Of a DNA stretch of 64,000 nucleotides, positions 5,257-35,355 are shown one piece after another. The notes below the pieces were generated by a model. It was not told the DNA's origin. It saw nothing but the letters and a program-made list of their open reading frames with translations, and searched no databases. Position numbers and translations under genes: made by a program. The stretch covers positions 62,001-126,000 of the forward strand of contig SHZR01000003.1 of the NCBI GenBank assembly GCA_009692205.1, read 5' to 3'. The stretch is from Gemmatimonadota bacterium. GTDB lineage: Bacteria; Gemmatimonadota; Gemmatimonadetes; Longimicrobiales; Gaopeijiaceae. How positions within the stretch are numbered: position 1 is the stretch's first letter; each line of letters opens with the position of its first letter.

Positions 5257-5278
5257 CCCGAAGGTGTCCAAGGTGTCC

Positions 5279-5482
5279 ATGGACGACACGGTCTGCATCG
5301 TGAACATCGGCCCGGGAGAGCGCCGTCGGCGGCGCTCGCTGGGGCTCGTGGCTCTCCTCGCGGGAGCCGCGCTGCTGGTTGGCGTGTGGGCGCTGGGGCT
5401 ACCGCCGGCCGCTCGGCTCTCCGCGTCCGTGTTCTTTTTCGCCGGCTTTGCGGGGATCTTCCAGGCTCGAGCGAAGACGTGA
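5279..5482 (+). CDS. Small membrane protein, first part; ends at UGA that may encode selenocysteine
   Basis: 67 residues to the UGA at 5480-5482. The start MDDTVCIVNIGPGERRRRR at ATG 5279 is preferred over the GTG at 5264. Two hydrophobic segments follow (about residues 21-40 and 45-60) and then FQARAKT-UGA. The frame stays open for 53 more codons (5483-5644) with coherent sequence. From memory, homologues of about 120 residues have Cys at this point (KTC), so UGA replaces Cys. A hairpin placed like a bacterial SECIS follows (5495-5511). Options are selenocysteine, a nonsense lesion, or two coupled ORFs. See findings. Confidence 0.6.
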   Translation: MDDTVCIVNIGPGERRRRRSLGLVALLAGAALLVGVWALGLPPAARLSASVFFFAGFAGIFQARAKT

Positions 5483-5511
5483 ATGCGTCTCGCCTCGCGC
5501 GGTCTGCGCGA
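5480..5511 (+). promoter_or_regulatory. Candidate SECIS element after in-frame UGA
   Basis: UGA at 5480-5482. Downstream, TCGCGC (5495-5500) pairs perfectly with GCGCGA (5506-5511), closing a 5-nt loop GGTCT (5501-5505). The loop starts 18 nt after the UGA. In E. coli fdhF, as I remember it, the GGUC loop that SelB reads also starts 18 nt after the UGA, and the FDH gene in this window has AGTCT at the same distance. The lower stem of the E. coli element is not clearly reproduced. A chance hairpin in GC-rich DNA is possible. Confidence 0.45.
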
Positions 5512-5644
5512 CCTGAACGACGGGCCCGAGCGGATCGAGGACGGGGGTGAACTTGCCGCGGTGCGGGCTCAGGCGCGCGGCGTGCTGCGCAGGAGTCTGC
5601 TCGCCACGGTGCTCATGAGCGCGGCGGCGCTGGTGCTTCCCTGA
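5483..5644 (+). CDS. Continuation of the small membrane protein after UGA (53 residues)
   Basis: The ATG directly follows the upstream UGA and is in the same frame, so this is either the C-terminal half of one 121-residue protein or a separately re-initiated ORF. It encodes RLASRGLRDLNDG, an acidic/Arg helix (ELAAVRAQARGVLRR) and a final hydrophobic segment (SLLATVLMSAAALVLP). No Shine-Dalgarno of its own is evident beyond the preceding codons. It ends at TGA 5642-5644, abutting the convergent metalloprotease stop at 5645. Confidence 0.5.
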   Translation: MRLASRGLRDLNDGPERIEDGGELAAVRAQARGVLRRSLLATVLMSAAALVLP

Positions 5645-31485: not shown

Positions 31486-32351
31486 TTGGCGTCCTCCTCC
31501 GGCACCTGGGGCCCGAAGCCCAGATAGTGCAGCCCCGCCGCGAGCAGCCCGAGCCCGAGCGCCGAGGCCCCGAGCTTCCTGACCGTGCCGAGCATGGCCA
31601 GCGCGCCGGCGCCCGCGGTCGGATCGGCGGGCAGATCGTACTGATCGAGCTGATCGCCGTGGGGCACCACGTACATCATGTGCGTGCCGCCCACACCGGG
31701 CGGATCGTACAGCACCGCGTTGGCGAGCCCACGCGCGCGCAGTCCTTCGACCTTCCGCTCGCCGAGCGCGACCATGTCTTCCTTGGTGCCCCACGAGATC
31801 GCGTTGGTCGGGCACGTCTTGGCGCACGCGGGCTCGAGCCCGGCCTCGACCCGGTCGATGCACATGTTGCACTTGTAGACCTTGCGGGTCGCCGGATTGA
31901 AGCGCGGGATGTCGAACGGGCAGCCGGACACGCACAGCTGGCAGCCTATGCAGTTCGCCTGGTTGAAGTCGACGATCCCGTTCTCGTACTGCACGATCGC
32001 GCCCGGGGCGGGGCAGGCGAACAAGCAGCCGGGCTCCGCGCAGTGGAGGCACGCGTCTTTCTTGATGAACCAGGCGACGTCGCCGCCCACCTCGACCTCG
32101 GTAAAGCGCATGAGGAGCCACGTGTCGGCCGAGAGGTCGCGGTGGCTCTGGAAGCTGCCGAAGTTCTCCGTCGGCTCGATGCCGAGCTCGTTCCACTCCT
32201 TGCACGCGATCTCGCATCCCTTGCAGCCGATGCAGCGCGAGATGTCGACGAGCTTCGCGTACTCGGGGCCCTCGGAGCGGATGCCCGGCGCGGGAGTGGA
32301 CGACGCCGACATGCGTCGGATCGCGAGGCCGGACGCCGGGAGCTGCGCCAT
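31482..32351 (-). CDS. fdhB: Formate dehydrogenase beta subunit, 4x[4Fe-4S]
   Basis: 289 residues. The ATG at 32351 overlaps the alpha-subunit stop by one base (TGATG). Four cysteine clusters: CIGCKGCEIACKEW, CLHCAEPGCLFACP, CIGCQLCVSGCPFDIPR and CNMCIDRVEAGLEPACAKTCP. The C-terminal hydrophobic segment (LGASALGLGLLAAGLHYLGF) is the single membrane anchor seen in FdnH/FdoH. It carries electrons from the molybdenum or tungsten site to cytochrome b. Confidence 0.94.
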   Translation of the reverse strand: MAQLPASGLAIRRMSASSTPAPGIRSEGPEYAKLVDISRCIGCKGCEIACKEWNELGIEPTENFGSFQSHRDLSADTWLLMRFTEVEVGGDVAWFIKKDACLHCAEPGCLFACPAPGAIVQYENGIVDFNQANCIGCQLCVSGCPFDIPRFNPATRKVYKCNMCIDRVEAGLEPACAKTCPTNAISWGTKEDMVALGERKVEGLRARGLANAVLYDPPGVGGTHMMYVVPHGDQLDQYDLPADPTAGAGALAMLGTVRKLGASALGLGLLAAGLHYLGFGPQVPEEDAK

Positions 32352-35341
32352 CAGACGGGCTCCATGTTCACGAGGAACGCCTTGAACTCCGGGCAGCGCG
32401 TGTTCGCGTCGCCGATGAACGGTGTGAGCGAGTTCGCCATCGAGCCCGTGGTGATGCCCTTGAAGCCCCAGTGCACGGGGATGCCGATGGTCCAGAGCGT
32501 GCGGCCGTTCACGGTGAGGGGACGGATGCGCTTGGTCACGATCGCGACGCCCTCGACCTCTCCGCGCGGCGACCACACGCGCACGCGCGAGCCGTTCGGA
32601 ACGCCCTTCTCGATGGCGAGCCCCTCGGGAATCTCCAGGAAGAAGTCTGGCATGGCCTCGACGAGCAGGGGCACGTGCGACGTCACGAAGTGCTCGCGCT
32701 CGACGACGCGATACACCGTCGCCGCGTACGGATAGTCCTCGGTGTTCTGTGCGAGCGACTCACGCACGCCGTCGTACCAGCGCACCGTCGGATTCACGGA
32801 TACGCGCTCGTGCAGGATGTTCACCGTCGGGCTCTCGGCCGGCTCGTAGTGTTCGGCGAACGGGCCATCGACCAGCCCGGTCGTGAACAGTCGCGCCACG
32901 CCTTCCTCGGTCATAATGAATGCGCCCGCGCCGTCCGGCGGCGTGGTCGCGCCGAAGTCGGGTACGTCGCCGGTCCAGCGGCTCCCCGTCCAACGGATAC
33001 CCGCCCGCGTCTGGTCCCACGGCTCGCCGTCCGCGTCGGCGGAGGCGCGGTTGTAGAGGACGCGACGGTTGAGCGGCCAGGCGAACGCCCACCCGTGATG
33101 GAAGCCGAGACCCGACGGGTCCTCGGTGCCGCGGCGGGCCATCATGTTGCCCTGCTCGGTCCAGCTGCCGGTGTAGATCCAGTTGCCCGAGCTCGTCGTG
33201 CCGTCATCGCGCAGTTCCGCGAACGAGTTGAGCAGCCGGCCGGTCGTGAGGTCGTATCCGTTGATCTCGCGGGCCAACTCCTCGAGCGTCGGCTCGCGCG
33301 GGTTCGCGTAGTCCCAGCGGAGGTTGTTGATCGGCTCGTGCCAGGCGCCGCCCTCCTCGGCGTAAAGCTCCTTCACGCGCCAGAACAGCTCCGACAGGAT
33401 CCACGTGTCGGAGCGCACATCCTTGGGGACGTCGATCGCGGCCTCCTTCCACTGCGCCCAGCGACCAGAGTTGGTGAACGAGCCGCCGCGCTCGATCCAG
33501 TGCGCCGCGGGCAGGTAGAGCACCTCCGTCTGGACCTGGCTCGCGTCCACGCCGGGCGCGTTCCAGAACTCGGCGGCCTCGTGTAGGAATGGGTCGATCA
33601 CGACCTTCCACTCGAGGTTGCTCATCGCGGTGACGAGCCGCTTGACGTCGGGCCCCGCTAGCAGCGTGTTGAAGCCGAGCGCGACGAAGCCGCGCATCCG
33701 TCCCTGGTGCGCTTCGTCCCACATCGAGAGCCAGGTCGCGTCGCCCCCCGGCTTGCCGATGTAGTGATAGGCATAGTCGTTGGCGGGGGTCGCGGACTCG
33801 CCGAACCACGACTTCATCAGCGAGACCATGAAGCGCGAGTAGTTGGTCCAGTAGTTGACAGTGCGCTCCACGAGGGGCCGCGGCGTGTACGCGGCGACGT
33901 GGGCCGCGAAGGACGCCTGCGCCGGAGTCGGCATGGTCAGATATCCAGGCAGGCTACCCGCCACGATCGCGTGATCGGTCGCGCCCTGCACGTTCGCGTG
34001 GCCGCGGAGCGCGTTGATGCCGCCCCCCGGTCGGCCGATGTTGCCGAGCAGCAGCTGCATGATGGCCGCGGCGCGGATGATCTGGGTCCCGACGGTGTGC
34101 ATCGTCCAGCCGACCGCGTACATGATCGTGCCGACGCGCTCCGCCGTACCGGTGGAGCAGACGATCTCCGACATCCTCTCGAAGTCCGCCGCGGAGCACC
34201 CGGCGATCGACGCGACGACGTCCGGCGTGTACCGGCTGTAGTGCATCCGCAGGAGCTGGAGCACGCAGCGCGGGTTCTCCATCGTCGGGTCGCGGCGCAC
34301 GAACCCGTCGCCTCCCATCTCGTAACGCCACTGCGACCGGTCGTACGTGCTCGTGGCCTCGTCGAAGCCCGCGAAGAGCCCGTCCTCGAACGAGAAGTCG
34401 TCTGCCACGATGAACGACGCATTCGTGTGGAGGCGGACGTAGTCCTCGTGGTAGAGCCGCTCCTCGAGGATCTTCCGGATCCAGCCCCCGAGCACCGCGA
34501 TGTCGGAGCCCGGCCGGATCTGAAGATGGCGGTCCGCGACCGCGGACGTGCGGGTATAGCGCGGATCGACCGTGACGATCTGCGCGCCGCGGTTATCCCT
34601 CGCTTCGAGCGCCCACTTGAAGCCGCACGGATGGTTCTCCGCGGGGTTCGCGCCCATGACGAGCACGACATCCGCGTTCTTGATGTCCTTCCAATGGTTG
34701 GTCATCGCGCCCCGACCGAAGCTCGCGGCCAGACTGGCCACCGTGGGGCTGTGTCATATTCGCGCCTGGTGGTCCATGTACACGATGCCCATCGCGCGCT
34801 GCGTCTTCGTGATGAGGTAGGCGTCCTCGTTCGTGACCGTGGCGCTGCCCACCCAGCCGATCCCCTCGCAGCGGTTCACCGTCCGGCCCTGCGCGTCGCG
34901 CTCCACGAACGTCGCGTCGCGCGCGTCCTTGTACTTCCGCGCGAACCAGGACATCGCCCACTCCCAGTCGACGTCTTCCCACTCGGAGGAGCCCGGCGCG
35001 CGGTACTTGGGCGAGTGCTCCAGGCGAGGGCTCATCGCGAGCTGCATCTGCGCCGCGCCCTTCGGGCAGAGCGTGCCGCCGTTGATCGGGCTGTCCGGAT
35101 CGCCTTCGACGTGGATGACGGAGCGCGTCGTGTTGAGCCCGCCCGAGCCGTGCACGTAGGCGATCGTGCCGCATCCGACCGCGCAGTACGGGCAGACCGT
35201 CTTGTACTCGCGCGCGCCCGAGATCTTGAGCTCGCGCGACTGCGCGTAAGCGGGCTGCAGGTCGAAGCCGAGCGCGCTGACGAACGTGCCGCCCGCGGCG
35301 AGCGCAGTGCCCTTGAGTAGATCGCGTCGGGAGATGGTCAT
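32351..35341 (-). CDS. fdhA: Selenocysteine-containing formate dehydrogenase alpha subunit (Tat-exported)
   Basis: 996 residues when the in-frame UGA at 34754-34756 is read as selenocysteine (residue 196, the same position as in E. coli FdnG). Flanks HQARI-U-HSPTVASLAASFGRGAMTNHW match the FdnG active site. The N-terminus MTISRRDLLKGTALAAGG is a Tat signal; CPYCAVGC...LCPKG binds [4Fe-4S]; the remainder is a molybdopterin oxidoreductase (GANPAENHP, ADVVLVMG-type segments). A standard gene caller would split it in two at 34741/34754. Periplasmic formate oxidation to CO2, feeding FdhB and FdhI. Requires SelA, SelB, tRNA-Sec and SelD, none of which is in this window. Confidence 0.95.
34724..34756 (-). 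promoter_or_regulatory. SECIS element of the formate dehydrogenase gene
   Basis: On the coding (minus) strand, UGA is followed after 18 nt by loop AGTCT (34735-34731), closed by GGCC (34739-34736) with GGCC (34730-34727), and by an outer CG/CG pairing with a small internal loop that includes a U as in E. coli fdnG. Such elements bind SelB to direct Sec insertion. Reading-frame constraints are kept, as the hairpin is coding. Confidence 0.8.
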
Positions 35342-35349
35342 CGCGCGCG

Positions 35350-35355
35350 ATTATA
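35350..35355 (-). promoter_or_regulatory. -10 box of the fdh operon
   Basis: A perfect TATAAT on the minus strand, 8 nt before the fdhA ATG (35341), in strongly GC-rich surroundings. No -35 hexamer is recognisable at 16-18 nt. If used, transcription would begin almost at the start codon and the mRNA would be leaderless or nearly so; no Shine-Dalgarno sequence is seen. Confidence 0.45.

Follow-up and report, generated by a model that had tools for sequence, protein, structure and literature searches.

Bacterial selenoproteins are routinely truncated by annotation at their in-frame UGA codon. Small membrane selenoproteins with selenocysteine (Sec) outside a thioredoxin domain are known from eukaryotes, namely SELENOK, SELENOS and SELENOI; these differ from the protein described here in their sequences, in the 3' UTR location of the SECIS decoding signal and in the position of Sec, so that the comparison is one of analogy only. 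The majority of characterised bacterial selenoproteins have a thioredoxin-like fold (PMC13188914). A 2026 inventory contains 119 families of prokaryotic selenoproteins (PMC13188914, Table 1), and nine new families were described with deep-Sep (PMC12013277).

The gene at positions 5279-5644 (forward strand) of the window, by which we mean the whole 64,000-nucleotide stretch of DNA that was analysed, resembles SelB-decoded bacterial selenoproteins such as FdhA in having an in-frame UGA followed, at a distance of 19 nt, by a hairpin loop that contains G/U, in the interchange of Sec and Cys among its homologues, and in the presence of SelA, SelB and tRNA-Sec in its genome. It differs from them in that its product is a small membrane protein without a known catalytic domain or a conserved CxxU/UxxC motif. 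The protein also does not belong with the thioredoxin-like selenoproteins, as its model is mainly helical and membrane-bound, with neither the thioredoxin fold nor a UxxC/CxxU motif. Judged from sequence comparison, the gene almost certainly encodes a selenoprotein. We consider the best explanation of the locus as a whole to be Sec recoding in a three-helix inner-membrane protein, belonging to a family present in two phyla and carrying a selenol with a presumed redox function (probability about 0.93).

The frame encodes 121 residues and aligns over its full length with 39 further homologues. It starts with the ATG at 5279 and ends with the stop codon TGA at 5642-5644; a GTG at 5264 is an in-frame alternative start, and AAGG at 5270-5273, 5 nt before the ATG, may be a ribosome-binding site. 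Codon 68 is the UGA at 5480-5482, where ordinary annotation would split the gene. GC content by position within the codon has the profile of a gene both before the UGA (0.73/0.55/0.84) and after it (0.83/0.53/0.85). The original prediction, made from the DNA letters, had placed the frame, the UGA and the stem and loop of a downstream hairpin, and on re-reading the sequence we found all of these coordinates to be correct to the base.

The one relative obtained from a search of public genomes was a protein from Candidatus Zixiibacteriota with 34% identity and TGA at the equivalent codon. Searches of whole genomes then gave matches in 9 of 59 near-relative genomes (at a loose limit, with the genome of the window itself counted), in 25 of 298 and subsequently 35 of 395 from the phylum to which the window belongs, probably Gemmatimonadota to judge from gene content, and in 10 of 132 genomes of the phylum Zixibacteria. 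The site alignment comprises 40 homologues from these two phyla, which are those covered by the search. Since these homologues are related to one another, counts drawn from them are not independent: position 68 is TGA in 35 and Cys in five (L024, L025, L043, L056 and L155; four TGC and one TGT), and none of the 40 has TAA, TAG, Trp or any other residue there. The assortment of residues or stops that the original prediction had named as grounds for its refutation is absent, and its statement that homologues carry KTC agrees with the Cys members, which have RTC, KTC or QTC. The constancy of TGA is weak evidence on its own, because TGA is probably the common stop codon in such GC-rich genomes.

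Conservation does not change across the UGA. Mean pairwise identity is 0.36 before it and 0.37 after it, and dN is lower than dS on both sides in 20 of 20 close pairs, indicating that coding is conserved through the in-frame codon. The tree of homologues requires five Sec/Cys changes, with the Cys forms scattered; one of these (L025) is surrounded by four genes from the same genus that have Sec. Scattered Cys forms together with equal selection make up a pattern that is characteristic of Sec/Cys exchange and not of decay or termination. As inferred from these genomes, the family includes dozens of bacterial species from at least two phyla with the same putatively recoded stop codon. One Zixibacteria copy (L060, G427:C49:1962-2192) has three in-frame TGA codons, of which one is the Sec site, another replaces a Trp of the relatives and the third falls at an Arg/Gln position; it looks like a gene in decay or an error in the sequence. 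In two divergent Zixibacteria members (L061 and L062, from G325 and G326) C-T-U replaces K-T-U, placing a Cys two residues before Sec (C-x-U); these possibly represent a subfamily that supplies the resolving Cys itself.

The putative SECIS hairpin occupies positions 5495-5511 on the forward strand. Its 6-bp stem (5495-5500 with 5506-5511) closes a GGUCU loop (5501-5505), the first base of which is 19 nt past the UGA, so that a G-bearing loop is found at the distance at which SelB acts. The Sec formate dehydrogenase (FDH) encoded elsewhere in the window, with which the hairpin had originally been compared, has an AGUCU loop at exactly the same distance. The FDH frame (32351-35350, reverse strand; UGA at 34756-34754, in the motif U-H-S-P-T-V) contains Molybdop_Fe4S4, Molybdopterin and Molydop_binding domains when its UGA is read through, and it lies outside the operon of the gene at 5279-5644. 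The hairpin, conservation of which had been a condition of the original prediction, is found in all 35 UGA genes: each can form 5 bp or more of stem at the corresponding place, closing a G-rich or GU loop (versions include GGUCU, GGUCA, CGGGA, GGG and CGGGC).

As the hairpin overlaps the codons of A-S-R-G-L-R-D, we used as a null model the reshuffling of synonymous codons with the protein sequence kept fixed (24 genes). The five inner pairs can form in 19 of these genes, compared with 2.4 expected, and all six pairs in 14, compared with 1.6 expected. For the Gly in the loop, 18 of the 24 genes use GGT and six use GGG, whereas elsewhere in the same genes Gly is encoded by GGC in 49% and by GGT in 15% of cases. 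In one homologue (L036) the Ser codon is TCT, commonly TCG, and the Arg codon is CGA, commonly CGC, synonymous changes that preserve one pair. Covariation in a fixed register is not significant (one two-sided change, with equally high values in 32 of 500 and 76 of 500 shuffles), which is partly attributed to the variation of register and loop type among lineages. Folding of single sequences gave z = -0.53 for this hairpin and -0.03 for the FDH control hairpin, and has no power for either. Among the Cys forms, L043 and L056 are without a full stem and L025 is without the loop U. Loss of the hairpin in Cys forms is only suggestive, because L024 still retains much of the stem-loop.

The machinery for Sec incorporation is encoded in the same genome: tRNA-Sec at C36:489-581 (66.5 bits, above cut-off), SelB (323 bits) and SelA (554 bits). 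Of 31 tested genomes that carry the family, tRNA-Sec was detected in 30, compared with 27 of 50 sampled genomes without the family (Fisher p 3e-5). This association is supportive and not exact, because the genomes are not independent of one another by descent and stricter filters were applied in scoring the second set. The single family genome in which tRNA-Sec was not detected (G278) has SelB. SelB scores are weak in G060, G227 and G181, which does not indicate absence, since scoring was limited to four candidates in each genome and tRNA-Sec is present in all three. The claim that this is a Sec protein is thus strongly supported by the column restricted to UGA and Cys, by equal conservation on both sides, by the hairpin and by the Sec machinery.

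An AlphaFold model based on a 28-member alignment (mean pLDDT 95.7) consists of three helices and a compact part, residues 66-88, which bears Sec. Considered with hydropathy and charge, the model suggests that helix 1 (residues 12-39, 5312-5395) has an arginine-rich amphipathic start followed by a transmembrane part, that helix 2 (residues 43-65, 5405-5473) is transmembrane and ends right before T67-U68, and that helix 3 (residues 89-119, 5543-5635) has a hydrophobic C-terminal half. There are three hydrophobic stretches and the N-terminus is strongly positive; by the positive-inside rule, these features most likely place both the N-terminus and the loop with Sec on the cytoplasmic side. Columns conserved at about 90% or more are N9, I10, G11, R18, G22, G59, Q62, T67, Sec/Cys68, L71, A72, G75 and R77. 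The family alignment contains no second conserved Cys; a Cys at position 6 occurs in many of the proteins from the taxonomic family to which the window belongs and is absent from most others. In 36 loci, for which a simple script provided the gene calls, no gene neighbour is shared across the family and local synteny is seen only among close relatives. Since no gene neighbour is conserved, the loci give no pointer to a substrate or pathway.

Several other readings of the UGA deserve consideration. It could be a true stop codon, in which case the locus would encode two separate proteins, one of 67 residues and, through re-initiation at the neighbouring ATG or GTG, one of 53 residues. An ATG does adjoin the UGA here and a start-like codon occupies that place in 21 of 35 homologues, but the other 14 have ATC, GTC or GTA, and for this reason re-initiation, which the original prediction had left open, appears very improbable. 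Furthermore, five homologues are one continuous Cys protein, it is UGA specifically and not any stop codon that is conserved, together with the hairpin, and the confident three-helix model spans both halves. Reading of the UGA as tryptophan, or general read-through without SelB, would be consistent with a frame that is open on either side, yet the replacement residue is always Cys and never Trp, the hairpin lies at a distance identical to that in FDH, and tRNA-Sec was detected in all tested family genomes but one (G278), which has SelB; we regard this reading as slightly more remote still. A nonsense mutation, a sequencing error or a pseudogene could account for an in-frame stop codon in any one assembly, and one copy (L060) does look degraded. 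However, the codon is TGA in 35 genes from two phyla, and dN stays lower than dS in the part that follows. Sequencing error is excluded by the recurrence of this UGA in 35 genes from different species, and purifying selection that is equal past the UGA excludes a nonsense mutation, the second possibility that had been left open, so that explanations of this kind can be practically dismissed. A further scenario is that the UGA acts as a selenium-dependent switch, Sec giving the long form and starvation a functional 67-residue form with two helices. According to the AlphaFold model the truncated form could enter the membrane, since both N-terminal helices precede the UGA. Against this, the Sec/Cys residue is invariant and about five Sec/Cys changes have given rise to lineages with a constitutive long form, and we consider a switch to be quite improbable.

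There is also the question of whether the protein is an unusual member of a known family, namely a divergent YgaP-like TM (DUF2892, PF11127) protein in which the Cys of a C-terminal T-C has become Sec. Both are small membrane proteins with an N-terminal N-x-G-x3-R-x2-R-x3-G and T-C near the end of helix 2. Classical DUF2892 members, for example L063 and L069, share the spacing of the N-terminal motif, and L063 also has T-C after helix 2; five of 28 members of our family give weak Pfam matches. On the other hand, scores of 10.6 and 13.8 bits fall short of the PF11127 gathering cut-off of 25.3 bits, with a best E of 0.022 among the 28 members; comparison with hhalign gave a probability of 12-13% over the first 30-40 columns only, and did not extend to similarity in both helices; and the family of the gene at 5279-5644 lacks the CP motif and has an extra third helix. 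A relation to DUF2892 is therefore suggested by the spacing and is not established, and membership of that family seems unlikely to us.

Beyond this, the 28 members have no credible family match in Pfam or NCBIfam (June 2026). The NCBIfam scan is relevant to Haft and Tolstoy 2025 as well, most of whose families reportedly have NCBIfam models; Deng et al. 2026 (Cell Rep) are said to list unvalidated new selenoprotein candidates from groundwater genomes. A PDB sequence search returned no match, a PDB fold search returned nothing below E 0.001, the viral fold library gave no fold match, and no relatives were found on plasmids and viral contigs. The 119 inventoried families share the decoding principle, and several of them are likewise of unknown function (OS_HP, GOS_B, Tso, DG, DW and DF), but none fits when their NCBIfam models are scanned with the 28 members and Sec motifs are compared by eye, the motif of our family being listed for none of them (PMC13188914). 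Judged by their descriptions, none of the nine deep-Sep families fits either (PMC12013277). The suggestion that this is an undescribed membrane family is thus upheld within Pfam, NCBIfam, PDB and the inventory, and a new family is likely as far as searchable libraries and papers go.

We propose that SelB with Sec-tRNA would read the UGA at 5480-5482 as selenocysteine, guided by the hairpin at 5495-5511, giving a predicted inner-membrane protein of 121 residues and three helices that most members of the family would make with Sec and not Cys. Its selenol would lie where helix 2 ends, at the cytoplasmic face of the membrane and near the conserved N9, R18, Q62, T67 and R77. There it might act as a single-residue redox group that reduces a membrane-borne or small oxidant, for example a peroxide or disulfide; because no second Cys is conserved, the oxidised selenol would be regenerated by an outside thiol. 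A membrane redox role is a tentative assignment, somewhat short of an even chance, and peroxide reduction in particular is doubtful. The combination of Sec with conserved Asn, Gln, Thr and Arg is reminiscent of peroxidase sites, which we treat as a lead only. The chances seem about even that the protein, as the first member to be described, represents an unrecognised family of small membrane selenoproteins that has a fold of its own and uses one selenol at the inner face for a redox reaction so far unassigned to any bacterial selenoprotein. A small membrane family that mostly has Sec and has no second conserved Cys raises the question of what a lone membrane selenol does; Sec is the costly form, yet the family has mostly kept it. 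Annotation models can be extended by the family at full length, and such genes would then no longer be missed.

Two other loci in the window were noted by eye. A frame at 903-1373 on the reverse strand contains a CYCYC motif (YCYCLCRETFTHYSLLDCF...C.VC) and resembles the CYCXC family, here in a Cys form; that family has Sec members elsewhere (inventory entry OS_HP4, PMC13188914). On the forward strand, two overlapping frames at 273-506 and 503-895 resemble, by their translations, a Phd/YefM-type antitoxin and, after it, a PIN-domain toxin of the VapC type.
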